Shown here piece by piece: positions 1 to 15,483 of a stretch of 64,000 nt of DNA (position 1 is its first letter; every line of letters starts with the position of its first letter). The notes below the pieces were generated by a model. It was not told the DNA's origin, searched no databases, and worked only from the letters and a program-made list of their open reading frames with translations. Both the position numbers and the translations under genes were made by a program. This DNA comes from Rhodocyclaceae bacterium (lineage in GTDB: Bacteria > Pseudomonadota > Gammaproteobacteria > Burkholderiales > Rhodocyclaceae): NCBI GenBank assembly GCA_028869135.1, contig JAGWTC010000001.1, positions 62,001-126,000 on the forward strand, written 5' to 3'.

Positions 1-1276
1 TCTCCTGCTCCAGGCGCTCGCGGCGCTGGGTCAGCGTATCCAGCGTGCGTCCGGCGTGGCTTTTCTCGGCATCGGCGAGCTTCAGCGCATGCTCGGCCTC
101 GGAATAGGTGCGACGCGCATCGGTCAGTTGGCCGCCGGCGGTTTCGACGAACTCTTCCAGTTGCGGCATGCGCTCGGACGCCTCTTCGTGGCGCATCTTT
201 GCGGCTTCGGCGCGAGCGCCGGCGTTTTCGCGCAGCGACGACCAGCGTTCGGCTTCGCGCGCCAGCTCGGCCTGCTGGCCGCGCCAATGGCCGTCCTCGG
301 TCGTCAGTTGGGCAATACGGGTTTCCAGGCGCTGACGGTTGTCGCGCATATGGCTGATTTCGGATTCGAGACGTTCGACCTCGGACTTGGCCGAATACAT
401 CTCGGCCTGCGCCGCATGCAGCGCATCCGATGCCGAGAAATGCGCTTCGCGCGCATGTTCGACGCGGGCCTCGATCTCTCGCAACTGCGCCGTTTCGCCT
501 TCGACGCGGGTGATGGCCTGTTCGACTTCGAGGTGCAGCTTCTCGGAATCGCGCCGCGCGTCCATGCGCTTCTTGTACCAGAGCAGATTCTGGCGCCCTG
601 TCATCTGCGACTGCAGATCGCGGTACTGGCGCGCCACTTCGGCCTGGCCTTCGAGGCGCACGATCTGGTTGTCGAGCTCGCCGCGGATATCGTCGACGCG
701 GGCGAGGTTTTCGCGCGCATCCTCAAGACGGTTTTCCGTCTCGCGGCGGCGCTCCTTGTACTTGGTCACACCGGCGGCTTCTTCGAGGAAGCCGCGCAGC
801 TCGTCGGGCTTGGCCTCGACGATACGCGCGATCATGCCCTGGCCGATGATGGCGTAGGAACGCGGCCCCAGGCCGGTACCCAGAAACAGGTCGATGATGT
901 CGCGGCGGCGGACGTTGAGGTTGTTGATGTAGTAATTCGAGTTGCCGTCACGATCGAGCACACGCCGCACCGTGATCTCGGCGTATTGCGACCACTGTCC
1001 GGCCGCCTTGCCGTCGGCGTTGTCAAAGAAGAGTTCGACGCTGCAACGGCTGACTTCCTTGCGCGTGCCCGAACCCTTGAAGATCACGTCCTGAATCGAT
1101 TCGCCGCGCAGCTCCGATGCCTTGGACTCGCCAAGCACCCAGCGCGCCGCGTCGATGATGTTGGACTTGCCGCAACCGTTGGGGCCGACAATGCCGCCCA
1201 GATTGCCCGGGAACAGCACGGTGGTGGGATCGACGAAGGACTTGAAGCCGGAAAGTTTGAGTTTGGTTAGACGCAC
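1..1276 (-). CDS. smc: Chromosome segregation ATPase SMC, N-terminal part (partial)
   Basis: Translating the minus strand from a GTG at 1276 gives an SMC head that runs off the left edge, so only about 425 codons are present. The start reads [20 protein letters not shown]. The Walker A motif GPNGCGKS sits near residues 31-38, and the conserved [20 protein letters not shown] block near residue 150 leads into a long charged coiled coil. SMC forms the condensin-like complex with ScpA and ScpB, whose genes lie in this window at 30.2-31.8 kb. The GTG start coincides exactly with the family N-terminus. queF is divergent. Confidence 0.95.
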
Positions 1277-1989: not shown

Positions 1990-2119
1990 TAAAGGTGTTT
2001 TGTGAAGAGGTGCCACTCGACACATCACCTTGTTATTGGGCATCATGAACCATTCAATTCATGCACCCGGACAAAAACCTCAGATTGCCTTGCCCTTTGT
2101 CGTCTACTTCACGTTAGGC
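1990..2119 (+). other. Degenerate integron-like sequence before the first cassette ORF
   Basis: The stretch ends in GTTAGGC (2113-2119), a match to the attC core GTTRRRY, five bases before the ATG at 2125. A second, weaker core-like GTTATTG lies at about 2032. The upstream partner half-site cannot be placed with confidence. I read this as the decayed 3' end of a preceding attC. Confidence 0.4.
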
Positions 2120-2124
2120 ACGGA

Positions 2125-2346
2125 ATGGATACTGTTCTTCACTTTCTTTTTTGGGCAGTCATCGAGACCGTACTTTTTCGGCTTGGGCGTGTTGCTCTAC
2201 GCGTTATTAGCATTGGCCGCGTTCGTTTAGAAAAGCCGACACCTTTCCAGGTTTTCATCGTTGCAGGGTTTGGTTTCCTGGTTGTGCTCGGTGTAGTTTT
2301 GGTAATTGCTTCGGTGGCCGTAGCCCATGTACCAATCTCTGCCTAA
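2125..2346 (+). CDS. Small hydrophobic cassette-encoded protein
   Basis: 73 residues with two hydrophobic segments: an N-terminal one (TVLHFLFWAVIETVLF), a basic linker with GRVALRVISIGRVRL, and a strong one near 48-66. No family is recognised with certainty. The start lies six bases after a GTTAGGC core, and the TAA stop overlaps the GCCTAAC half of the downstream attC, the usual layout of an integron cassette. An overlapping ORF in another frame (2045-2230, also hydrophobic) is less likely because it ignores both boundaries. A frameshifted longer protein joining the two frames cannot be excluded. Confidence 0.55.
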   Translation: MDTVLHFLFWAVIETVLFRLGRVALRVISIGRVRLEKPTPFQVFIVAGFGFLVVLGVVLVIASVAVAHVPISA

Positions 2347-2415
2347 CCCTTTGGTCAAGCGGGACCGTCTTCCGGCGTGCTGCCTCCAGCCGGCCCCTTA
2401 CCTCCAACGTTAGCC
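2341..2415 (+). other. Integron attC recombination site
   Basis: R'' GCCTAAC (2341-2347) and R' GTTAGCC (2409-2415) are near complements. Inside them, TCAAGCGGGACCG pairs with CCGGCCCCTT, leaving one unpaired C, the extrahelical base that sets strand choice in attC sites. Length is 75 bp, within the family range. The stop codon of the upstream ORF lies in R'' and the next ORF starts seven bases after R'. No integrase gene is within the window. Confidence 0.75.
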
Positions 2416-2421
2416 ATACCT

Positions 2422-2748
2422 ATGCTGCATCGCGCCATCGTTTCAATCGGGCTTGCTCTGGTGTTGTTGATAGGAGCTTTTCTTTTGTTCGCTGCTTTGG
2501 TCTCCCTCTCCAGCGATACAAGCCGGCCCGAATGGTTAATTATTTCGGCCTATTCGATTTTTGCCTGGCCGTTACACCTTTTTTCTCGCCTCCTTCCGAA
2601 CACCAGTTGCGTTGATGGTCACGAAATCTGTAGTTACGGCAGTGAGGTCTATCTTGCAACCGCAATCACGCTACCGTTGATCTACTCATCGGTTATCTAC
2701 TGTGTTCTGAGCTGGAGGGAGCGTTGTGCTTCAAAACCCCTTGCCTAG
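2422..2748 (+). CDS. Second cassette-encoded membrane protein of unknown function
   Basis: 108 residues with about three hydrophobic segments: near 5-25, near 38-52, and near 78-97. A Cys pair lies in the central polar loop (NTSCVDGHEIC). The product is not recognised. The ATG is seven bases after the attC core GTTAGCC, and the TAG stop overlaps a GCCTAGC half-site, so gene plus site has the organisation of an integron cassette. The base composition is more AT-rich than the flanking chromosome. Confidence 0.6.
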   Translation: MLHRAIVSIGLALVLLIGAFLLFAALVSLSSDTSRPEWLIISAYSIFAWPLHLFSRLLPNTSCVDGHEICSYGSEVYLATAITLPLIYSSVIYCVLSWRERCASKPLA

Positions 2749-2790
2749 CCCTTCGTATATGGACTCCCACGGTAAGTAAAGGGTTTGATC
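2743..2790 (+). other. Degenerate or truncated attC after the second cassette
   Basis: GCCTAGCCCTT at 2743-2753 closely resembles the 5' half of an attC, and its complement AAGGGTTTGAT follows near 2780. The inner arms are missing and the 3' core does not fit GTTRRRY well. I take it as a decayed site. Confidence 0.4.
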
Positions 2791-3030
2791 GTTTTGTGGG
2801 CATTGGGGCGTGCGTCTGCAGTCGCATCACCGCAAGGGTGCTGCCTTTGTATCCGGCATCAGTTTTGGGACACAATGCCCGCCAACGAAACCGTTTCTAA
2901 TCAAACCGCTAAAACACCCTGCTTCGTTACGGCTTGAGCCTCCGCTTGCCGCGTCAATAGCCGATTCGCTTAGACGAAAAAAGGGCGATGCCATTGGCAT
3001 CGCCCTTTTTTGCTCAGACATCGATCTGGG
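2791..3030. other. Non-coding stretch between cassette remnant and MFS gene
   Basis: About 240 bases without a convincing gene. A minus-strand ORF (2827-3021) runs through the terminator and is probably spurious, although the DNA under it has the look of a dispersed repeat. Only the terminator at 2975-3012 is supported. Confidence 0.4.
2975..3012. terminator. Bidirectional terminator downstream of the MFS gene
   Basis: GGGCGATGCC and GGCATCGCCC pair around an ATT loop, with A and T runs on either side. It terminates the MFS gene on the minus strand and would also stop read-through from the cassette remnant. Confidence 0.85.
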
Positions 3031-4371
3031 TCAGTTTTCCACGCTGCCGGCGGTCTTCTTGTTGTACATGTAGAGCGCGATCAGGGTACAGACCACGCCC
3101 GACATCACGTAGGCGCCCACGGCCACGGTGCCGAACTTGACTGCCAGCCCGAGGGCGACCAGCGGCGCGAAGGCGGCGCCGATCAACCAGCCGATGTCGG
3201 CGGTCAGGGCGGCGCCAGTGTAGCGATAACGGCGCGGGAAGCTGCCTGAGACCACACCGTGCGACTGGCCGTACGACAGGCCCAGCAGGATGAAGCCGAT
3301 CAGGATGAAGGTGTTCTGCGAGCCCGCGCCACCCGTGAGCAGACTGGGTACGAAGAAGCTGAACACGCCGATCAGGATCGCCACTGCGCTCAGCGTTCTG
3401 ACGCGGCCGATGCGGTCGGCAATGAAGCCGGACGCAAGAATCGCGATGATGGCCAGCAGCGCGCCCACCAGTTGCACGGTCAAGACCTGGTTGTCCGACT
3501 CCACCATGCCCAGGGGCACCCAGGACAGGGGGAAGACCGTTACCAGATGGAACAGCGCATAGGTGGCCAGCGACGAGAAGGCGCCGATCAGGATGTTGCC
3601 GCTTTGCGCGTTGATCAGTTCCTTGGCGTTGGTCGGCTCAAGCTCGCTTTTTTCCAGCATGCGGCTGAAGTCCTCGGCGACGACAAGGCGCAGGCGGGCG
3701 AACAGTGCGACGACGTTGATGGCAAAAGCCACGAAGAAGGGATAGCGCCATCCCCAGTCGACGAAGTCGCTCTTGGACAGGGTGCCGTTCAGATAGAGAA
3801 AGAGTCCGGCCGCCAGTATGAAGCCGACCGGTGCGCCGAGCTGCCCCAGCATGGCGTACCAGCCCCGCCGACTCGGCGGCGCGTTGATGGCCAATAACGA
3901 AGGCAGGCCGTCCCAGGTGCCGCCGACGGCGATGCCCTGCAAGGTGCGCAGGAGGACGAGCATGAAGATGGCCGTGCCGCCGGCGGTAGCGTAGTCGGGC
4001 AGGAAGCCCACGCTCACGGTCGCCGTGCCGAGCAGGAACAGCGCGGCGGTCAGCTTGCCGCTGCGCCCCCAGCGCCTTTGCAGGGACATGAACAGTGCGG
4101 TCCCCAGCGGTCGCGCCAGGAATGCCAGAGAAAAAATTACGAAACTCAACAGGATGCCGTCGATCGTGTCCTTGTGCGGAAAGAAGACGGTCGGGAAGAC
4201 CAGCACCGACGCCAGGCCGAATACGAAAAAGTCGAAATACTCCGACGTTCGCCCGATCACCACGCCGACTGCAATTTCGCCGGGGGTGACATGAGAGTCG
4301 GCTTCCGGCGCGCGCCAGATGGCTTCGTCCATGCTATCGGGGTTGGAAAACGCTTGAGTCATGGTAACCAT
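3031..4371 (-). CDS. MFS transporter, metabolite:H+ symporter (MHS) type
   Basis: 446 residues with about 12 membrane spans. The segment GRTSEYFDFFVFGL in the first span is the MHS-family signature (compare ShiA, KgtP and ProP), and GFIADRIGRVRT after the seventh span is the repeat of the MFS loop motif. It should be a proton-coupled importer of an organic acid or osmolyte, but the substrate cannot be read from sequence. Start ATG 4371 has GAGGGAAACC in front; a second ATG three codons on is possible. It is a single gene with its own terminator. Confidence 0.85.
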   Translation of the reverse strand: MVTMTQAFSNPDSMDEAIWRAPEADSHVTPGEIAVGVVIGRTSEYFDFFVFGLASVLVFPTVFFPHKDTIDGILLSFVIFSLAFLARPLGTALFMSLQRRWGRSGKLTAALFLLGTATVSVGFLPDYATAGGTAIFMLVLLRTLQGIAVGGTWDGLPSLLAINAPPSRRGWYAMLGQLGAPVGFILAAGLFLYLNGTLSKSDFVDWGWRYPFFVAFAINVVALFARLRLVVAEDFSRMLEKSELEPTNAKELINAQSGNILIGAFSSLATYALFHLVTVFPLSWVPLGMVESDNQVLTVQLVGALLAIIAILASGFIADRIGRVRTLSAVAILIGVFSFFVPSLLTGGAGSQNTFILIGFILLGLSYGQSHGVVSGSFPRRYRYTGAALTADIGWLIGAAFAPLVALGLAVKFGTVAVGAYVMSGVVCTLIALYMYNKKTAGSVEN

Positions 4372-4550
4372 GGTTTCCCTCCTGTCTTATTGTGGGATTT
4401 CAGTTTGCATCTCGCCGGCTCTTCCTGAAATGAGAAACAGGCGTACTTATAGTCCCATAAATATTCAGAATATAAAAGTGCCGCGAATTTTTCTGGAGCG
4501 CCTACCCTTTGGGTTAGCATGCGCGCCGCTCAAAAGCAATAATCCGATTG

Positions 4551-4579
4551 GTCTAGCGCACTAGGACAAAATGTCTAGT
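4551..4579. promoter_or_regulatory. CTAG-rich inverted/direct repeat cluster upstream of cyoA
   Basis: Three CTAG tetramers occur in about 28 bp in the arrangement GTCTAG-CGCA-CTAGGAC and then AAAATGTCTAG. The first two form an inverted repeat. ACTAGGACA and TGTCTAGT form a second one. It lies 45-70 bases before the cyoA start, where an operator is expected. The binding protein is unknown. Confidence 0.4.
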
Positions 4580-4623
4580 TCCCGAACGCGAGCCAATCCC
4601 TTAGATTCCGAAAGTTCCCCAAC

Positions 4624-5694
4624 ATGTTCAACTTTCCAGCCATGCCCCGACTCAAGCTAATTACAATCCCGGGCCTGTTCTGCGCCCTTCTGCTTTCCGG
4701 CTGCAACATGGTGCTGCTGTCCCCTTCGGGCGACATCGCCGTGCAGCAAAAGGACATCATGCTCATCTCCGTATGGCTGATGCTCATCGTCATCGTGCCG
4801 GTGATGTTCCTGACCCTGCTGTTTGCATGGAAATACCGCTCGACGAATACCGAGGCCACCTACAGCCCCGAATGGCACCACTCCACCATTCTCGAACTGG
4901 TGATCTGGTCCGTGCCGCTGATAATCATCATCGCGCTGGGCGCCGTTACCTGGGTATCGACGCACTCGCTCGACCCCTATCGCCCGATCGAACGCATTTC
5001 CGAAGGCCGCAACATCCCGATGGATGCCAAGCCGCTGGTGATCGAGGTCGTCGCCATGGACTGGAAGTGGCTGTTCATCTACCCCGAGCAGAACATTGCC
5101 CTGGTCAACGAACTGGCGGCGCCGGTCGATCGTCCGATCGAGTTCCGCATCACCTCGACGACCATGATGAATTCGCTGTACATCCCCGCACTGGCCGGCC
5201 AGATCTACGCCATGCCGGGCATGCAGACCCAGTTGCACGCCGTCATCAACAAGGCCGGCGACTACGAAGGCTTTTCCGGCAACTACAGCGGCGCGGGCTT
5301 CTCGCACATGCGTTTCCGCTTTCACGGCGTGAGCGAAGCCGAATTCGCGCAGTGGGTTGAACAGAATCGCAAGGAAGGCAGCGACCTGACCCGCGAGGCT
5401 TACCTGAAGCTCGAGCAGCCGTCCGAACGCGAGCCGGTGCAGCGCTTCGCCAAGGTCGACGCCAATCTCTTCGACGCCGTCCTGAACCGTTGCGTCGAAT
5501 CGAACCGCATGTGCATCAAGGACATGGTCGCCATCGACCGCAAGGGCGGCATGGGCGAGTCCGGCACGCACAACCTCGCCTCGAACGCCATGATCGGCCG
5601 CCGTATCGGCCTCGACCTCGCTTCGCAGAAGACCTATGTCGGCACTCTGTGCGCCCCCCAGGCGCAGGCCGATGCCAAGAGCAAGGTCCTCTGA
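4624..5694 (+). CDS. cyoA: Cytochrome bo3-type ubiquinol oxidase subunit II
   Basis: 356 residues. A lipoprotein signal ends in LLSGC (Cys about 27), followed by two membrane helices (about 45-68 and 92-112) and a periplasmic cupredoxin domain. The CuA ligand cluster of cytochrome c oxidases is replaced by SGNYSGAGFSHM, which marks a quinol oxidase. It docks with CyoB in the inner membrane. It is the first gene of cyoABCD. Start ATG 4624 is taken, though ATG 4642 (MPRLKL) also gives a complete lipoprotein signal, and neither has a good ribosome binding site. Confidence 0.95.
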   Translation: MFNFPAMPRLKLITIPGLFCALLLSGCNMVLLSPSGDIAVQQKDIMLISVWLMLIVIVPVMFLTLLFAWKYRSTNTEATYSPEWHHSTILELVIWSVPLIIIIALGAVTWVSTHSLDPYRPIERISEGRNIPMDAKPLVIEVVAMDWKWLFIYPEQNIALVNELAAPVDRPIEFRITSTTMMNSLYIPALAGQIYAMPGMQTQLHAVINKAGDYEGFSGNYSGAGFSHMRFRFHGVSEAEFAQWVEQNRKEGSDLTREAYLKLEQPSEREPVQRFAKVDANLFDAVLNRCVESNRMCIKDMVAIDRKGGMGESGTHNLASNAMIGRRIGLDLASQKTYVGTLCAPQAQADAKSKVL

Positions 5695-5739: not shown

Positions 5740-7743
5740 ATGTCTGAACACTTCGACCTGAGCAAAATGATCTTCGGTCGGCTCTCCTGGGAAGCCATTC
5801 CCTATCATGAGCCCATCCTGATCTTCACCTTCATCGGCGTCATTCTCGGCGGCATCGTCGTCGTCGGCGCATTGAGCTATTTCAAGCTGTGGGGCCCGCT
5901 GTGGCGTAACTGGATCACCAGCATCGACCACAAGAAGATCGGCATCATGTACATGATCCTCGGTCTGGTCATGTTCGTGCGCGGCTTCGCCGACGCGCTC
6001 ATGATGCGCGGCCAGCAAGCCCTGTCCTTCGGCGACAACATGGGCTACCTGCCGCCGCACCACTACGATCAGGTCTTCACCGCCCACGGCGTGATCATGA
6101 TCTTCTTCTTCGCGATGCCCATCGTGACCGGCCTGATGAACTACATCGTGCCGCTGCAGATCGGCGCGCGCGACGTGTCCTTCCCCTTCCTCAACAACTT
6201 CAGCTTCTGGATGACCGCCTCGGGCGCCGCGCTGGTGATGGTGTCGCTGTTTGTCGGCGAATTCGCCAAGACCGGCTGGCTGGCCTACCCGCCGCTGTCC
6301 GGCATCATGCAGAGCCCGGACGTGGGGGTCGACTACTACATCTGGGCCCTGCAGATCGCGGGCGTCGGGACACTGCTGTCGGGGGTCAATCTGATCGTCA
6401 CCATCATCAAGATGCGCGCACCCGGCATGACCATGATGAAGATGCCCGTCTTCACCTGGACCGCCCTCTGCACCAACATCCTGATCGTCGCCGCCTTCCC
6501 GATCCTTACCGCCGTGCTGGCCATGCTGTCGTGCGACCGTTACCTCGACACCAACTTCTTCACCAGCGATCTCGGCGGCTCCGCCATGCTGTACGTGAAC
6601 CTGATCTGGATCTGGGGCCACCCCGAGGTGTACATCCTGGTGCTGCCGGTCTTCGGCATTTTCTCCGAAGTCGTCGCCACCTTCTGCAAGAAGCGCCTGT
6701 TCGGCTACACCTCGATGGTGTACGCGACCGTGGTCATCACCATCCTGTCGTACATCGTCTGGCTGCACCACTTCTTCACCATGGGTGCGGGCGCCAGCGT
6801 GAACTCCTTCTTCGGCATCTCGACGATGATCATCTCGATCCCGACCGGGGCCAAGCTGTTCAACTGGCTGTTCACCATGTACCACGGCCGTATCCGCTTC
6901 GAGCTGCCGATGGTCTGGACCGTGGGCTTCATGGTCACCTTCGTGATCGGCGGCATGACCGGCGTGATGCTGGCCGTGCCGGCAGCCGACTTTGTGCTGC
7001 ACAACAGCCTGTTCCTGATCGCCCACTTCCATAACGTCATCATCGGCGGTGTGGTGTTCGGCGCCTTCGCCGCAATCAACTACTGGTTCCCCAAGGCCTT
7101 CGGCTTCAAGCTGGACTACAAGTGGGGCCTGGCCTCCTTCTGGTTCTGGTTCGTCGGCTTCTGGGTCGCCTTCACGCCGCTCTATGTGCTGGGCTTCATG
7201 GGCGTCACCCGCCGCATGAGCCACTTCGACGACCCTTCGCTGCAGATCTGGTTCCAGATCGCTGCCGTCGGCGGCCTGCTGGTTGCACTGGGCATTGCCT
7301 GCTTCTTCATCCAGATCGGCGTGAGCTTCATGAACCGCAAAAAGCTGGCCGACGTGACCGGCGATCCGTGGGACGGCCGCACGCTGGAGTGGTCGACCTC
7401 CTCGCCCCCGCCGGACTACAACTTCGCCTTCACGCCTGTCGTGCATGAGCAGGATGCCTGGTTCGACATGAAGAAGAACGGCTTCAAGCGCCCGACCGAA
7501 GGCTTCATCGCCATCCACATGCCGAAGAATACCGGCGCCGGCTTCATCCTGGCCATGATCAGCGCCGCCATCGGCTTCGCCCTGATCTGGCACATGTGGC
7601 TGCCCGTCATTGTCTGCTTCGCGGCGCTGATTGCAGCCGTCATCATCCATACCTTCAACTACAACCGCGACTATCACATCCCCGCCGATGAAGTCGTCGC
7701 TGTCGAAAACGAACGTACTCGCCTGCTCTCCAGCCATGTCTAA
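5740..7743 (+). CDS. cyoB: Cytochrome bo3-type ubiquinol oxidase subunit I
   Basis: 667 residues, full length for Cyo[16 protein letters not shown] contains the Arg, Asp and Gln of the high-affinity quinol site. The low-spin haem ligand lies in [10 protein letters not shown], the CuB and His-Tyr crosslink region is [14 protein letters not shown], followed by WLHHFFTMG and the haem ligands in [12 protein letters not shown]. It reduces O2 to water at the haem o-CuB centre while pumping protons. Its stop overlaps the start of cyoC. No heme O synthase (cyoE) follows, so haem O must come from a gene elsewhere. Confidence 0.98.
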
Positions 7744-8368
7744 TACGCACACCGCAACCGCCGCTGGCATCCGCACCAGCGAAAGCTACTACCTCAAGGA
7801 AGAGCACCATCCGGAGAACGGAACCATGCTCGGGTTCTGGATGTACCTGATGAGCGACTGCCTGTTGTTCGCCATGCTGTTCGCCGCCTACGGCGTGCTC
7901 GGCCGCCATTACGCGGCCGGCCCGTCCGGCGCCGACCTGTTCGACCTGAAGCTGGTCGCGGTGAACACGGCCTTCCTGCTGCTCTCGTCCATCACCTACG
8001 GCTTCGCCATGCTGGCGATGCACTCGAAGCGCCTCGGCAAGACACTGTTCTGGCTGGGCATCACCGGGATCTTCGGCCTCGCCTTCCTGAGCCTGGAAAT
8101 CTACGAGTTCGTGCACCTGATCCACGAAGGCGCAGGCCCGCAGCGCAGCGCGTTCCTGACCTCCTTCTTCGCTCTGGTCGGCACGCACGGCCTGCACGTC
8201 ACCTTCGGCACGATCTGGCTGGTCACGTTGATGTTCCAGCTCAAGAAGCACGGTCTGGTCCCCGAAAACAAGCGCCGCATGAACTGCCTGTCGCTGTTCT
8301 GGCACTTCCTCGACGTCGTCTGGATCGGCGTATTCACCTTTGTCTATCTGATGGGAACCCTCGTATGA
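7736..8368 (+). CDS. cyoC: Cytochrome bo3-type ubiquinol oxidase subunit III
   Basis: 210 residues with five predicted helices, as in CyoC. The conserved segments [31 protein letters not shown] and [14 protein letters not shown] are present. It stabilises subunit I and the proton entry path. The ATG overlaps the last codons of cyoB by 8 bases, which implies translational coupling. A longer reading frame upstream is only overlap with cyoB. Confidence 0.97.
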
Positions 8369-8757
8369 GCAACCATAACCACGACGCCCACGCTCATCAC
8401 GGCGATCACGATCACCACGAAGACGACACCCCCCACGGCAGCCTCTACGACTATGTCGTCGGTTTCGTCCTGTCCGTCATCCTGACCGCGATCCCGTTCT
8501 GGCTGGTCATGGGCAAGGTCATCGACGACAAGACTGTGCTGTCCCTGATCCTGCTCGGCATCGGCGCCGTCCAGATCGTGGTGCACATGGTGTACTTCCT
8601 GCACATGAGCCCGAAGTCGCAAGGCGGCTGGAACTTGATGGCGCTGATCTTCACGCTCGTACTGGTCGTCATCACCATGGCCGGCTCGATGTGGGTCATG
8701 TACCACCTGCACAGCAACATGATGCCCATGCCCGTCAACATGAACAGCATGCCCTGA
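8365..8757 (+). CDS. cyoD: Cytochrome bo3-type ubiquinol oxidase subunit IV
   Basis: 130 residues. An N-terminal His/Asp-rich tail (about 1-25, with clusters such as HAHHGDHDHHEDD) precedes three membrane helices and the CyoD motif VQIVVHMVYFLHM. It overlaps cyoC by the ATGA arrangement. CyoD assists CuB binding to subunit I. The His-rich tail is more marked than in E. coli and might bind metal, which is inference. Confidence 0.95.
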   Translation: MSNHNHDAHAHHGDHDHHEDDTPHGSLYDYVVGFVLSVILTAIPFWLVMGKVIDDKTVLSLILLGIGAVQIVVHMVYFLHMSPKSQGGWNLMALIFTLVLVVITMAGSMWVMYHLHSNMMPMPVNMNSMP

Positions 8758-8772
8758 CGAAAGCCGCATCAC

Positions 8773-9567
8773 TTGAGCCCGACTCCGCAGGACTCACAGC
8801 GCAACGGCTCGCCCAACGGCGGGCCGTTGTCGCTTGATGAACCCCGCCCTCCCCGCAAGCGCGGCTTTATCGTCGCCTGGTGCATCTTTGCGCTGATCGC
8901 CTTTGTCGGCTTCATCGCGCTCGGCAACTGGCAGGTCGAACGTCGCGTCTGGAAACTGGATCTCATCGAGCGCGCCGAAACGCGCTCGCAGGCGTCGCCG
9001 GTCGCATTGCCCGACCGTTCCGAATGGCCCCAGATCACGGCCCGCTCGCACGAATATCTGCACGTCAAGGCGGCAGGCCGCTTCCTGCATCAAGACGTCA
9101 CCTTCGTCCAGGCCAACACCAATCTCGGCCCCGGCTTCTGGGCGCTGGTGCCGCTGCGACAAGCGGACGACACCCTGATCATCGTCAATCGCGGCTTCGT
9201 GGCGAAAAAGGAAAACTACCGGCCCATGCCTGATGGGAGCGTGGAGCTGACCGGCCTGCTGCGCATCAGCGAACCGGGCGGCGGCCGCCTGCGCAAGAAC
9301 GAGCCGGAAAACGAACGCTGGTTCTCCCGCGATGTCGAGGCCATCGCCAAGGCCCGCCATTTGTCGACCGAACGGCTCGCGCCCTACTTCATCGATGTGG
9401 ATTACAACCCGGCGACAGGCGCCGAGGAGCCCGTCGGCGGCCTTACCATCATCAGCTTCTACAACCATCATTTGGTTTATGCCCTGACCTGGTATACCCT
9501 TGCCCTGATGGTTGCGGGCGCGACGGCTTACCTCCTGCGAGAGGAACGCAAAAAACACAACTCCTGA
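8773..9567 (+). CDS. SURF1 family oxidase assembly protein
   Basis: 264 residues starting at TTG, 15 bases after cyoD. It has the SURF1 plan: a first membrane helix (about 36-55) followed by LGNWQVERRVWKLDLIERAE, a periplasmic domain, and a second helix near the C-terminus (about 235-255) after ISFYNNHLVYALTWY-type sequence. SURF1 delivers haem a or o to subunit I. In Paracoccus one of two SURF1 proteins serves the quinol oxidase, and the position here directly after cyoD suggests that role. No other start fits as well. Confidence 0.9.
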   Translation: MSPTPQDSQRNGSPNGGPLSLDEPRPPRKRGFIVAWCIFALIAFVGFIALGNWQVERRVWKLDLIERAETRSQASPVALPDRSEWPQITARSHEYLHVKAAGRFLHQDVTFVQANTNLGPGFWALVPLRQADDTLIIVNRGFVAKKENYRPMPDGSVELTGLLRISEPGGGRLRKNEPENERWFSRDVEAIAKARHLSTERLAPYFIDVDYNPATGAEEPVGGLTIISFYNHHLVYALTWYTLALMVAGATAYLLREERKKHNS

Positions 9568-9595
9568 GCGCGCCCAACCCCCACGGAGAAAAAAG

Positions 9596-10978
9596 TTGTT
9601 AAGCAGGATGAGGCCCAATACGGCGCGTTTCCTGCCCGACATCGGTTCGGGCCGCTACGCGAACATGCAGCAACTGATCCAGTTGCGCTGGCTCGCGGTG
9701 TTCGGCCAACTGGTCACGATATCCTTTTCGAATTTCGTGTTCATGATGGACCTGCCGCTGGCGCAGATGTTCGGCGTTATCGCGGCGCTGATCGGCTTCA
9801 ATATCTTCAGCAGCCTGCACTGGCGCATTCAGCGCGAAGGCGACAACCGCGAGGTCAGCAATCGCGACCTCTTCCTGTCGCTCCTGATCGATGTCTGCGC
9901 GCTCACCGCCCTGCTCTATTTCAGCGGCGGCGCCGCCAACCCCTTCAGCTCCCTCTATCTGTTGCAGATCGTGCTCGGCGCGGCGATTCTCGACGCCAGC
10001 TCGCTGTGGGCGCTGATCGTCTTCAGCAGCACCTGCTTCTCAGGCCTTACGGTCACTTACCACCCGCTGGCCTTGCTGCACGGCAGCCTGCCCGACCGCT
10101 ATCTGCTCGGCATGCTGCTCTGCTATGCGATCAACGCGGCGCTGCTCGGCCTCTTTGTCACCCACATCAACCGCAAGCAGCGCGAACGCGATGCCCGTCT
10201 GGCCGATATGCGCCAACGCGCCCTCGAGGAGGAGCACATCGTGCGCATGGGCCTGCTGGCTTCGGGCGCCGCGCACGAATTGAGCACGCCCTTGTCCACC
10301 ATGGCAGTCATTCTCGGCGACTGGCAGCACATGCGGACACTCAAGAGCGATCCTGGCATCGCCGAGGATGTCGAGGAGATGCAACGCCAGGTCAGTCGCT
10401 GCAAGTCCATCGTCACCGGCATTCTTTTGTCAGCCGGCGAAACGCGCGGTGAAGCGCCGGAGGAAACCACGGTCTGCACCTTCCTGGACGAACTCGTCGA
10501 AGACTGGAAGGAAACACGCAAACCAGCCGGCTTCGTCTACGACAACCGCTTCGGCACGGATCTCCCGATCGTCTCCGACGAGGCGCTCAAGCAGACCATC
10601 TGCAACGTACTGGACAATGCCCTTGAAGCCTCGCCGCAATGGGTGAAACTCGGCGTTCTCCGCAGCCAGGAACAATTGATCCTGACCATCAGCGACAAGG
10701 GGCCTGGCTTTATCGAGGAAATGCTCCATCATGTCGGCAAGCCCTATCAGTCGTCCAAGGAAAATTCGGGCAGCGGCATCGGCCTGTTTCTAGTCGTCAA
10801 CGTGATCCGCACCCTGGGCGGCGCGGTCGCGGCCCGCAATATCGAAAATGGCGGTGCCGTGGTAACGCTAAGCTTGCCCTTGAATGCATTGAAACTGAAT
10901 AGACACAACGAGTCTGACAATGACCATAGCTTCACTCCCCACCATGGAAGCCAGCCTCCGCCTGTTGCTGATCGTTGA
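9596..10978 (+). CDS. regB: Redox sensor histidine kinase, RegB/PrrB/ActS family
   Basis: About 460 residues with six membrane helices. The quinone-binding loop GGAANPF (about 111-117), the H-box SGAAHELSTPL with phospho-His near 227, and a Cys about 41 residues later in QVSRCKSIV match the redox Cys position of Rhodobacter RegB (His225 and Cys265). ATP-binding N, G1 (DKGPGF) and G2 (GSGIGL) boxes follow. It reads quinone redox state and phosphorylates RegA. TTG 9596 is preferred because GGAG lies seven bases before it; ATG 9608 is the alternative. Its end overlaps regA. Confidence 0.9.
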   Translation: MLSRMRPNTARFLPDIGSGRYANMQQLIQLRWLAVFGQLVTISFSNFVFMMDLPLAQMFGVIAALIGFNIFSSLHWRIQREGDNREVSNRDLFLSLLIDVCALTALLYFSGGAANPFSSLYLLQIVLGAAILDASSLWALIVFSSTCFSGLTVTYHPLALLHGSLPDRYLLGMLLCYAINAALLGLFVTHINRKQRERDARLADMRQRALEEEHIVRMGLLASGAAHELSTPLSTMAVILGDWQHMRTLKSDPGIAEDVEEMQRQVSRCKSIVTGILLSAGETRGEAPEETTVCTFLDELVEDWKETRKPAGFVYDNRFGTDLPIVSDEALKQTICNVLDNALEASPQWVKLGVLRSQEQLILTISDKGPGFIEEMLHHVGKPYQSSKENSGSGIGLFLVVNVIRTLGGAVAARNIENGGAVVTLSLPLNALKLNRHNESDNDHSFTPHHGSQPPPVADR

Positions 10979-11483
10979 AGACGACGAGGCCTTTCACCGT
11001 ACGCTAAGCCGCTCATTCGAGCGCCGCGGCTACGCCGTGCTGCATGCCAGCAGCCTGGAAAGCATGCAGGAGGTGCTGACCGCAGATACCCCCGACTATG
11101 CCGTAGTCGACCTCAAGCTGGCCGGCAAGGCTTCTGGTCTGGCCTGCGTCGAGGTGCTGCACAAGCACAACCCCGACATGCTGATCGTCGTGCTCACCGG
11201 TTACGCCAGCATTGCCACGGCGGTCGAGGCGATCAAGCTCGGCGCCTGTCAGTATCTGGTCAAGCCTTCGAATACCGACGACATTGAGGCCGCCTTCAAC
11301 AAGGCTGGCGGCGACGCAGACATTGACGTCACACCGCGCGCCACCTCGATCAAGACGCTGGAATGGGAGCGTATCCACGAAACTCTCGCGGCCACCGGCT
11401 TCAATATCTCGGAAACCGCTCGTCGCCTCGGCATGCACCGCCGCACGCTGGCGCGCAAGCTGGAAAAGCAGCGCGTCAAATAG
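10920..11483 (+). CDS. regA: Redox response regulator, RegA/PrrA/ActR family
   Basis: 187 residues: a receiver domain with acidic pocket (IVEDDEAF), phospho-Asp in AVVDLKLAG, Thr in LTGYAS and Lys in LVKPS, then a short linker and a Fis-type helix-turn-helix (NISETARRLGMHRRTLARKL) almost unchanged from other RegA proteins. It overlaps regB by 59 bases; ATG 10944 (MEASLRLLL) would shorten this to 35. It is expected to control respiratory and redox genes, and the adjacent cyo operon is an obvious candidate target. Confidence 0.93.
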   Translation: MTIASLPTMEASLRLLLIVEDDEAFHRTLSRSFERRGYAVLHASSLESMQEVLTADTPDYAVVDLKLAGKASGLACVEVLHKHNPDMLIVVLTGYASIATAVEAIKLGACQYLVKPSNTDDIEAAFNKAGGDADIDVTPRATSIKTLEWERIHETLAATGFNISETARRLGMHRRTLARKLEKQRVK

Positions 11484-11782
11484 GAGCGTCCTCCGCAGCG
11501 GAGTCTTTCCTCCGGCAATCGAACGTGCCGACGGCAGGATCAGGCGTCTGCCTTCTGCCGAAGCACGGCATTGCCCTACCCAAAGCCGAATGCCGCATTG
11601 GGGAACGTAATTCGCGATCACCCCATCCAATGGGCAGAGACAGCCTGAAACTGTCTGTCGAGCCGCATGGCCCCCGCTGTCCGCAGGCGGCTGGCGTTGG
11701 CGGCATGCTGGTACACCAATGCGGCGTCGGGCAGGCCGGTAAAGCGGCCGTAGCTCCTTCGCTTTTGAAAATCACTGATCAA
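11484..11782. other. 299-base intergenic region between regA and folE
   Basis: I see no gene. CTCCGC-AGC-GGAG followed by TCTTT just after the regA stop could be a weak terminator. Both a plus and a minus reading frame cross the region but have no recognisable product. Any folE promoter is not obvious. Confidence 0.4.
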
Positions 11783-12514
11783 ATGAGTCCATCCATGCTG
11801 CACGATCCCGTTCTCAAGGCCTTTCCCTCTCCGACTGCAATCCCCGTATCCGAGCGCATTCGCCAACGCCTTGCGGAGGCGGGGCAGCGCTTCCACGCCA
11901 ACGACAATATTGCCGCCCACATCCGCGACGGCGAAATGGACGAGCTGCGCGTCGAGCTTGAGCAGCAGTTGCAGGGCGTGCTGCGCTCGCTGGTCATCGA
12001 TACGCAGAGCGATCACAACACCGCCGAGACCGCAAAGCGGGTCGCCAAGATGTTCCTCAACGAGATATTTCGCGGCCGCTACGAGGCGGCGCCCACCGCC
12101 ACGGCATTCCCGAACGTATCGCAACTCAACGAGCTGATGATCGTGGGCCCGCTCGCGGTGCGCAGCGCATGCTCGCACCACTTGTGTCCGATTCTAGGCA
12201 AAGTGTGGATCGGCGTGCTGCCGAATGCATCGTCCGACCTGATCGGTCTGTCCAAGTACGCGCGTCTGGTCGAATGGGTCATGAGCAGGCCCCAGATCCA
12301 GGAGGAGGCCGTCATCATGCTGGCTGACGAGCTGGAGCGCCGCATCAAGCCGGATGGCCTGGCCATTGTCATGGAAGCCAGCCACTTCTGCATGCACTGG
12401 CGCGGCGTCAAGGACGACGGGGCACTGATGCAGAATTCCGTCATGCGCGGCGCCTTCCTGAAGGATGCTACGTTGCGCGCCGAGTTCCTGAGTCTGCTCA
12501 GGCAGCGCGCCTGA
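11783..12514 (+). CDS. folE: GTP cyclohydrolase I
   Basis: 243 residues. The zinc ligands lie in SACSHHLCP and ASHFCMHWRGV, the two catalytic motifs of type I GTP cyclohydrolase. The segment HNTAETAKRVAKMF and the loop ELMIVGPLAVRSAC are also typical. It opens GTP to dihydroneopterin triphosphate, the first step of folate and pterin synthesis. The N-terminal 70 residues are less conserved. ATG 11783 and ATG 11795 are both possible starts, and neither shows a clear ribosome binding site. An ECF sigma gene follows at 41 bases. Confidence 0.9.
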   Translation: MSPSMLHDPVLKAFPSPTAIPVSERIRQRLAEAGQRFHANDNIAAHIRDGEMDELRVELEQQLQGVLRSLVIDTQSDHNTAETAKRVAKMFLNEIFRGRYEAAPTATAFPNVSQLNELMIVGPLAVRSACSHHLCPILGKVWIGVLPNASSDLIGLSKYARLVEWVMSRPQIQEEAVIMLADELERRIKPDGLAIVMEASHFCMHWRGVKDDGALMQNSVMRGAFLKDATLRAEFLSLLRQRA

Positions 12515-12555
12515 TCGCCCTGCCAGCACTCGATCGCCGAACCGCAGGAAGCCCC

Positions 12556-13257
12556 ATGCTGAACACATCCGGCCAGACACCCGCCCCCCTTTCCCCGCAA
12601 ACGCCAGAGGCCGAGCTTGTCGCGCGCGCGGCCAGCGGCGAGACGCCCGCGTTCGAGGCGATCATGCGGCGCCACAACCGGCTGCTGTTTCGCACGGCGC
12701 GCAGCATCCTGAAAAACGATTCCGAGGCCGAAGAAGCCCTGCAGGACGCCTACCTGCATGCGTGGCGCGGCCTGGAAGGATTTCGTTCGGACGCCAGGCT
12801 CTCAACCTGGCTGGTGCGCATCGTCGCCAACGAAGCGCTAGGACGCCTGAGGCGCAAGACCGCGCAGATCATTCCACTGGACGCCGCCATGAATTCCATC
12901 GACCCGGAAATCCAGGCATCGTTAACCGACGATCCCGCCCACAGCCCCGAAAGCCTCGCCATGCGAGCCCAGATACGCCTGCTGCTGGAAGCCCGTATCG
13001 ATTTGCTGCCCGAGGCCTTCCGTACCGTGTTCATGCTGCGCGCGGTCGAGGAAATGAGTGTGGAAGAGGTTGCCGAGGCGCTGGATATTCCCGAGGCCAC
13101 GGTACGCACCCGCTTCTTCCGCGCCCGCAGCCTGCTGCGCGAGGGACTCGCCAGCCAGGTCGATGTAGCGCTGCAGGATGCCTTCGCCTTCGACGGCATG
13201 CGCTGCGATCGTATCGTTGTCGGCGTGCTGGAAAAACTGCCGCCCCGCCAAGTCTAG
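12556..13257 (+). CDS. ECF-type RNA polymerase sigma factor
   Basis: 233 residues. Region 2 is seen in FEAIMRRHNRLLFRTARSIL, DSEAEEALQDAYLHAWRGL and ARLSTWLVRIVANEALGRLR. Region 4 is in LPEAFRTVFMLRAVEEMSVE and IPEATVRTRFFRARSLLRE. It directs RNA polymerase to a specific promoter set. No anti-sigma factor gene follows; the next gene is thpR on the other strand. A roughly 40-residue extension after region 4 ending in KLPPRQV could have a regulatory role. The target genes are unknown. Confidence 0.88.
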   Translation: MLNTSGQTPAPLSPQTPEAELVARAASGETPAFEAIMRRHNRLLFRTARSILKNDSEAEEALQDAYLHAWRGLEGFRSDARLSTWLVRIVANEALGRLRRKTAQIIPLDAAMNSIDPEIQASLTDDPAHSPESLAMRAQIRLLLEARIDLLPEAFRTVFMLRAVEEMSVEEVAEALDIPEATVRTRFFRARSLLREGLASQVDVALQDAFAFDGMRCDRIVVGVLEKLPPRQV

Positions 13258-13309
13258 CGCCGCCCTCGCATCTGTCCCGTACACAGCTCGAACAGATCAG
13301 GCTCAGGTT

Positions 13310-13912
13310 TTACTCGGCCAGAGACCAGGTACGAATTACCTCATGGCGGGAGAAGCCGATATGGCTTTTGACAAGGGAAAACTCCGCAGCCCGAAAGCCA
13401 AGTGGCTCGATGGAAAAGCGCGGCACGCGACGGTGCGCATCGTAGCCCAAGGTCATGTGCGGCTCATAATTGCGCACCGGAGAAAATCCGTGCTCCGCCA
13501 TCGCAATAGCCAGCGCCGTACGCAGTTCGCGCACCCGATCCAGACCATCGCTTCCCAGCAGAACGAAGGGACCGCTTGGCGCGGCGAACGTCATGGCGGC
13601 GTCGAAGCATGCGTCGAATGCCGCTCGATGCACCGTATCAGCCGCGCGACAGGCGGCTTCCACGAGATGTGCAGCCGCATCGTGCCCCACCAGTTCGAGG
13701 GTAATGTGCAAGCGCTCGGCGCCAGTGCCTTTACCCATTACACCGCAGTCGGCCAGCAAGCGCTCGGCAAGACGCCTGATGCGCACAGCATCCTCGGCGG
13801 AGGGACGCAAGGCAAAGAACCAGGTATGCGATGGTTGCGTCGCCGGCTTTCGCGGCGGGTTCCGCCTTGGCGCAGATTCGGGCGCGTCCCCGAACAGATC
13901 CTGCTCAGGCAC
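13310..13912 (-). CDS. thpR: RNA 2',3'-cyclic phosphodiesterase (2'-5' RNA ligase family)
   Basis: About 200 residues with the two HxT motifs of the 2H phosphoesterase fold, LHITLELVG and PHMTLGYD, which form the active site. The usual length is about 175-190. It hydrolyses 2',3'-cyclic phosphate RNA ends. The start is uncertain: GTG 13912 (MPEQDLFGD) avoids overlap with guaA, and GTG 13927 would overlap it by a few bases. The gene follows guaA immediately on the same strand and may be co-transcribed. Confidence 0.85.
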   Translation of the reverse strand: MPEQDLFGDAPESAPRRNPPRKPATQPSHTWFFALRPSAEDAVRIRRLAERLLADCGVMGKGTGAERLHITLELVGHDAAAHLVEAACRAADTVHRAAFDACFDAAMTFAAPSGPFVLLGSDGLDRVRELRTALAIAMAEHGFSPVRNYEPHMTLGYDAHRRVPRFSIEPLGFRAAEFSLVKSHIGFSRHEVIRTWSLAE

Positions 13913-13917
13913 CCGCC

Positions 13918-15483
13918 CTATTCCCACTCAATCGTCGCCGGGGGCTTGCCCGAAATGTCGTAGACCACGCGGTTGATGCCGCGCACTTCGTTGATGATGC
14001 GGTTCGAGACCTTGCCGAGCAGGCTGTGCGGCAACTCGGACCAGTGCGCGGTCATGAAGTCGGTGGTCGATACCGAACGCAGGGCCACGACGTATTCGTA
14101 AGTGCGTCCGTCGCCCATGACGCCGACGCTCTTGACCGGCAGAAACACGGCAAAGGCCTGCGAAGTCTTCTCGTACCAGCCTGCGGCGCGCAATTCGTCG
14201 ATGAAGATGGCATCGGCGCGACGCAGCAGATCGGCAAACTCCTGCTTCACTTCGCCGAGAATGCGCACGCCGAGGCCGGGGCCGGGGAAGGGATGGCGAT
14301 AGACCATTTCGTGGGCCAGGCCGAGCGCCACGCCGAGCTCGCGCACTTCGTCCTTGAACAGTTCGCGCAGCGGTTCAAGCAGCTTGAGATTCAGCGTCTC
14401 GGGCAGACCGCCGACATTGTGGTGGCTCTTGATCGTGTGGGCCTTGCCGGTCTTGGCGCCGGCCGACTCGATCACGTCCGGATAGATGGTGCCCTGCGCC
14501 AGCCACTTGGCCTTGGGCAGCTTCTTGGCTTCGGCCTGGAAGACTTCGACGAATTCGCGACCGATGATTTTGCGCTTGGCCTCTGGATCGGACACGCCCT
14601 TCAAGTGGCCCATGAACTGTTCGGTCGCATCGACGTGGATGACCTTGACGCCGAGATTGCGCGAGAAGGTTTCCATGACCTGAGCGCCCTCATTCAAGCG
14701 CAGCAGGCCGTTATCGACGAAGACACAGGTCAGCTGGTCGCCGATGGCGCGATGGATCAGCGCCGCAGCGACAGAGGAGTCAACGCCGCCGGAGAGGCCA
14801 AGGATGACTTCATCCGAGCCCACTTGTTCGCGAATCTTCGCGACGGCTTCGTCGATGTAACCTGGCATGGTCCAGTCATTGCCGCAGCCGCAAATGTCAT
14901 GCACGAAGCGCGCAATCATGTCGCGCCCCTTGGGCGTGTGCGTCACTTCGGGGTGGAATTGCACCGCGTAGAACTTGCGCTTTTCGTCGGCAATCGCGGC
15001 GATCGGCGTCGAGGGATTGCTGGCGATCACGTTGAAGCCCGGCGGCAATTGCGTGACCTTGTCGCCGTGGCTCATCCACACATCGATGCCCGGCTCGCCA
15101 GAGGCAGTCTTGCGGTCCTCGATCAGACGGAACAGCGGCGAATCGTTGTGCGTCACGATCTCGGCGTAGCCGAACTCGCGCTTGGACGAACTCTCCACCT
15201 TGCCGCCGAGCTGCTCGGCCATGGTCTGCATGCCGTAGCAAATGCCCAGGACCGGCACGCCGAGCTCGAACACCACTTGCGGCGCGCGCCAGTCCAGCGC
15301 CTCATACACAGAGTTCGGACCACCGGAAAGAATGATGCCGGCCGGTTTGAATTCACGGATGAACTCCGGCGTCACATCATAGGAATGCAGCTCGCAATAG
15401 ACTTGCTGCTCGCGCACGCGGCGGGCGATCAGTTGCGTGACCTGGGAACCGAAATCGAGGATGAGTATTTTCTGGTGGGACAT
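13918..15483 (-). CDS. guaA: GMP synthase (glutamine-hydrolysing)
   Basis: 521 residues. The class I amidotransferase domain has the nucleophile in LGICYGMQ and His/Glu in HPEVTHT. The ATP pyrophosphatase domain carries the P-loop [11 protein letters not shown], followed by the C-terminal dimerisation domain ending in ATIEWE. It converts XMP to GMP. It lies 70 bases downstream of guaB in the standard guaBA operon. Confidence 0.98.

Follow-up and report, generated by a model that had tools for sequence, protein, structure and literature searches.

A stretch downstream of queF in a Rhodocyclaceae genome is most probably a degraded chromosomal integron, consisting of an attI, two cassettes, one good attC and one attC broken by an insertion sequence (IS) (Table 1). 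It lies in a 64,000-nucleotide stretch, hereafter the window (C16:62001-126000). The draft genome comprises 63 contigs totalling 2.82 Mb, with a completeness of 96.35% and a contamination of 2.99%. The feature is flanked by queF on the left (1449-1883, PF14489) and by a convergent MFS transporter gene on the right (3031-4371, minus strand, PF07690), with an inverted repeat and a T run behind each flanking gene (1912-1939 for queF and 2977-3011 for the transporter gene). The closest relatives of QueF among named ones are from MAGs of Betaproteobacteria and Rhodocyclaceae. An earlier, sequence-only reading had described a cluster of attC sites lacking an integrase; the cassette remnant that it recognized was borne out, while the description is incomplete, since an attI is found at the left and an IS-broken attC at the right.

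The covariance check proposed in that reading was run with a home-made model (R1, distinct from that of IntegronFinder) built on 21 attC sites with the window's own excluded, and the well-formed 75-bp attC claimed at 2341-2415 was recovered with 87.2 bits (E = 7.7e-22), the runner-up among seven matches in the 64 kb scoring 10.7 bits. Because the window's own genome supplied 15 of the 21 sites in the model (3 on contig C2 and 12 on C36), this score is a test of homology and not an independent structural test. The window's attC shares 72 of its 75 bases (97% by BLAST) with C36:98622-98696, inside a 13-site cassette array. Its folding energy is not significant on either the bottom (z = -1.45, 16 of 200 shuffles as good) or the top strand (z = -0.56, 53 of 200), and an Rfam scan of the window gave no family at gathering score. 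The outer boxes of an attC are named R'' and R', and the 5' core of a cassette complements the R'' of its own attC. R'' (GCCTAAC, 2341-2347) contains the stop of the first cassette gene (TAA, 2344-2346), as had been read; the outer cores, described as complementary, pair at six of seven positions and not at all seven, and R' (GTTAGCC, 2409-2415) does not fit the GTTRRRY form assigned to it. In the whole genome, R1 at E up to 1 detected 18 attC sites (13 on C36, three on C2, one on C15 and one in the window). Two initial attC patterns gave two and three matches, none on C2, and missed known sites, so the attC counts rest on the covariance model.

At the left end, 24 bases (2096-2119) are identical to the site adjoining intI in G133 (L173), and 25 bases (to 2120) to the site adjoining intI in the same-genus genome G097 (L174), whereas the attI of the genome's own integron on C2 matches at 17 of 21 positions. 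To the left of these 24-25 bases, no similarity to other integrons extends. Judged by its sequence, the left end is an attI, which would make the element an integron platform in its own right and not a set of loose attC sites. With the crossover taken to fall between G2113 and T2114, the core-complementarity test was passed by cassette 1 (7/7) and failed by cassette 2 (5/7). Perfect joints were found at 15 of 20 attI heads (18 of the 19 attI sites described below, without L209, which lies at a contig end, together with the two heads of C2 type, on C2 and C36) and in 36 of 380 non-own pairs, such that a lone 7/7 joint has about a one-in-ten probability by chance; when 6/7 was counted as a match there was no discrimination (18 of 20 heads and 209 of 380 pairs). 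All 14 cassettes of the C36 array had perfect core complementarity. A random secondary site as the source of the left GTTAGGC was ruled out by the attI identity and by the distribution of this attI type at array heads.

Table 1. Features of the element, in window coordinates
Feature	Position	Strand	Basis
attI-like site	2096-2119	+	Identity to attI beside intI in G133 and G097; presumed crossover G2113/T2114
Cassette 1	2114-2409	+	attI crossover to attC crossover; 5' core GTTAGGC against own R'' GCCTAAC, 7/7
ORF of cassette 1, 73 aa	2125-2346	+	One hydrophobic segment; stop inside R''; distant relative in G354
attC of cassette 1, intact	2341-2415	+	R1 87.2 bits, E = 7.7e-22; 72/75 bases as in C36:98622-98696
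Cassette 2, 3' end missing	2410-2755	+	Begins at R' of attC 2341-2415; GTTAGCC against R'' GCCTAGC, 5/7
ORF of cassette 2, 108 aa	2422-2748	+	Two hydrophobic segments; stop inside R''
Second attC, left end only (R'' and spacer), cut before L''	2743-2755	+	Sequence; R1 10.6 bits, E = 1.8
Putative IS1111-attC-type right-end (non-coding) remnant	2756-2880	-	Right-end profile match; same YTAAC-core join in relatives

The two ORFs agree with the small membrane-protein genes, spaced as cassettes, of the sequence-only reading, with start codons 5 bases (core 2113-2119 to ATG 2125) and 6 bases (core 2409-2415 to ATG 2422) past the cores where 6-7 had been given. Among 399 genomes of the order, ORF 1 has a single relative besides itself, in G354 (38% over query residues 1-59, E = 1.8e-6), which begins at the corresponding start codon and therefore supports the start at 2125; a search of the same genomes with ORF 2 returned nothing but itself. 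Neither protein had a Pfam or NCBIfam match above cut-off, in line with the unassigned function noted earlier, and both were also searched against plasmids, without a match at E 0.01. For these two small membrane proteins, an accessory function in the cell envelope would be a guess. An ORF at 2030-2230 was rejected as the cassette gene, as it spans the joint between attI and cassette and as the G354 relative starts where ORF 2125-2346 starts.

ORF 2 terminates in GCCTAGC (2743-2749, stop TAG 2746-2748), correctly placed at the end of the second cassette by the sequence-only reading, and this core and its spacer (2743-2755) pass into TATATGGACTCCC. An nhmmer profile built on 24 right ends in other genomes matched 2756-2880 with 26.9 bits (E = 7.7e-8; E = 1.4e-6 with a profile from all 28 ends); the IS similarity of this segment rests on that 26.9-bit match, a point against the reading. 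The right-end pattern is present in 21 of 199 family genomes, this genome counted. Among loci from other genomes, 22 of 30 right ends lie behind an NYYTAAC core by a strict test, which the remaining eight fail, some by one base. Several of these loci contain an IS110-kind ORF, and the one tested, from L156, scored 313.8 bits with NF033542 and 99.8 bits with PF02371. The opposite IS end was sought in 14 loci and located in five; past it, the attC resumes as GTCAA in L145, L154, L156 and L158 and not in L147. According to the available portion of PMC11187229, the transposase gene of IS1111 members is usually followed by their long non-coding region, and attC is the target of ISKpn4 and ISPst6. 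Given this layout, the profile match and the joins seen in relatives, 2756-2880 is taken as the non-coding right end of an IS1111-attC-type element, which at the window joins R'' and the spacer, that is, between R'' and L''. The minus strand given for it is that on which, judging from the relatives, the lost transposase gene lay. The attC target is shared with ISKpn4 and ISPst6; unlike these elements, the window keeps about 125 bp of right end and no transposase gene, and no PF02371 match to a DEDD (IS110-type) transposase was found in the draft genome. The right end was also considered as part of an intact attC, which its low R1 score ruled out. Elsewhere in the genome, an IS-right-end-like stretch lies behind a CCTAGC core on C53 (L172, C53:36000-41932, around 3031, minus strand); it aligns with the IS-like right end in the window over 58 columns, with a profile E of 1 that is not significant.

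The element is integrase-less in the window, as had been claimed, and the claim does not extend to the genome. At E 1e-3, a TIGR02249 search of the genome placed no integron integrase on C16. Ten IntI queries run by tblastn (E 0.01) over the window locus (L008) gave nothing either, including in the stretch of only 212 bases from the queF stop to attI. A full-length IntI is encoded on C2 (326-aa ORF at 4159-5139, TIGR02249 488.7 bits), next to an attI-like site and three attC. As read from the sequence, the window thus appears to hold the attI at the array head and to lack the adjoining intI of a complete integron; recognizable intI remains, as in a degraded integron, were not found at the window locus either. 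Contig C36 carries an array of 13 attC by the model (L007, C36:88000-107900, at 7370-15225). At its head are a decayed intI start and a near-identical copy of the attI region of C2, and it ends in an attC cut in the middle (approximately 15198-15225 of L007). This copy shows that attI regions do get duplicated.

We searched 199 family genomes for the attI 22-mer with up to two mismatches and found it at 19 places, the window counted, in 15 genomes; a backward-pattern control gave 0 among the matches listed. At 18 of the 19 places, the attI is followed by a correctly oriented attC detected by R1, some of these attC sites (in G097 and in relatives from the window's own genome's array) being inside R1 or close to its members, and at L190 the contig ends 61 bases past the attI. 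By tblastn with ten IntI proteins (E 0.01), a full-length or nearly full-length intI is present at five of the 19 sites (one, in G109, interrupted), 5' remnants of 49, 50, 73 and 99 residues remain at four, and no intI was detected at ten, among them the window; 14 sites, including the window and C15, are therefore without a full-length or nearly full-length gene. Across these sites intI is lost by degrees, and the window fits the last stage of the series, with no local remnant to prove it.

These results suggest a succession of events in which a normal platform of intI, attI and cassettes would first have lost the intI left of attI, leaving attI and two cassettes joined to it where IntI recombination is expected to place the joints. 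Later, an IS1111-attC-type element would have entered cassette 2's attC, between R'' and L'', and a further deletion would have removed the transposase gene, the other IS end and the rest of the attC, leaving approximately 125 bp of right end. Since no intI fragment is left at the locus, the former presence of the gene, like the order of events, is something we infer. The window attI is closer to those of G097 and G133 than to that of the genome's own IntI, and so the original integrase would not be the one seen on C2. Cassette 1 may still be excisable or capturable in trans by the C2 IntI.

Alternatively, attI and cassettes could have been copied or moved as a block from another integron, with intI never at the locus. 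The C36 copy of the C2 attI region offers a precedent, and the element is absent downstream of queF in both congeners retrieved, where a 346-aa ORF and then more ORFs (L012, taken as G097) or a 1036-aa repeat-rich ORF behind a similar terminator (L013, taken as G040) follow queF. The two ORFs, whose conservation with the same flanks across the genus would have spoken against the sequence-only reading, were thus not seen in either congener, and with three genomes in the synteny comparison, gain here and loss there are both compatible. However, likeness to other integrons stops at the 24-25 attI bases, and the graded series of intI remnants elsewhere speaks for loss in place, which leaves a block copy unlikely. 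Still less probable is IntI-driven cassette insertion at a non-integron genomic site (attG) resembling attI by chance. Such insertion in Escherichia coli is cited in the accessible text of PMC12444791, and the flank left of 2096 is unlike other attI regions, but the 24-25 base identity is to real attI sites, and of the 19 places with this attI type 18 head an array, against none among the listed control matches. No empty host site carrying an attI-like sequence was found, the queF neighbourhoods of G097 and G040 both being different. Chance resemblance in ordinary intergenic DNA carrying two small ORFs, to which the unremarkable folding energy and the near lack of protein relatives might point, is refuted by the covariance match and by near identity to an attC of the true array on C36. 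The 1036-aa ORF of G040 (L013, 2057-5167, minus strand) itself shows, by eye, GGxGxDxLxGG-like repeats and a long acidic DE run.

A degraded chromosomal integron is of a kind already known as CALIN, SALIN and inactivated integrons, as far as the available parts of PMC9024848, PMC9229058 and PMC12444791 describe them. Single attC sites are termed SALIN in the part seen of PMC9229058, and the CALIN default of IntegronFinder 2 is at least two attC without intI in that of PMC9024848. The window falls below this threshold, because one attC is intact and the second is cut (10.6 bits). Like CALIN and SALIN it has attC without a neighbouring intI; in contrast to them, it keeps an attI at the array head. 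Inactivated Xanthomonas chromosomal integrons resemble it in the loss of intI with cassettes kept, whereas in that genus intI decays at one fixed locus (ilvD), in the portion of PMC12444791 consulted, and the window array sits away from the intact integron and has another attI type. Taken alone, the locus is a case of ordinary integron decay. Its contribution is that two origins of integrase-less cassettes become separable, a kept attI indicating a lost or copied platform and ordinary host sequence a genomic-site insertion. Outside class 1 integrons, attI sites have been poorly described, according to PMC9024848.

More tentatively, family genomes may hold several attI docks without intI, scattered over the chromosome and all fed cassettes in trans by one distant IntI, a possibility that we consider doubtful and under which the window locus would represent one such dock, close to dead. 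In this genome, attI-headed arrays without a full-length intI occur on C15, C16 and C36, and the congener G097 has one complete integron and two docks without intI (C11 and C18). Cassette turnover before intI loss, or intI missed in draft assemblies, would explain the pattern equally. In the available literature, no description of several attI-headed arrays without intI per genome was found, and 'orphan attI' had no match. With 14 of 19 heads lacking a full-length or nearly full-length intI, the attI marker opens the idea of a distant IntI serving docks in trans to a direct test in the family. Two docks in two species of the genus, G097:C18 (L207) and G040:C260 (L208), have no detectable intI, and in G040, whose assembly is 94% complete, intI had no match at E 1e-60. 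Both lie behind a photolyase-related gene (PF04244) with 81% DNA identity over 1720 bases, and beyond attI no similarity between the two was detected (blastn E 1e-3; tblastx hits over 40 residues); different sequence behind a dock at the same place is compatible with service in trans, and equally with the two other explanations just given. A second exact copy of the attI 22-mer in the genome of the window lies on C15 (L198, C15:1-6000, at 155-750, minus strand), near a contig end, and heads one cassette with a 149-aa ORF without a Pfam match, an attC at 155-226 and a joint of 5/7.
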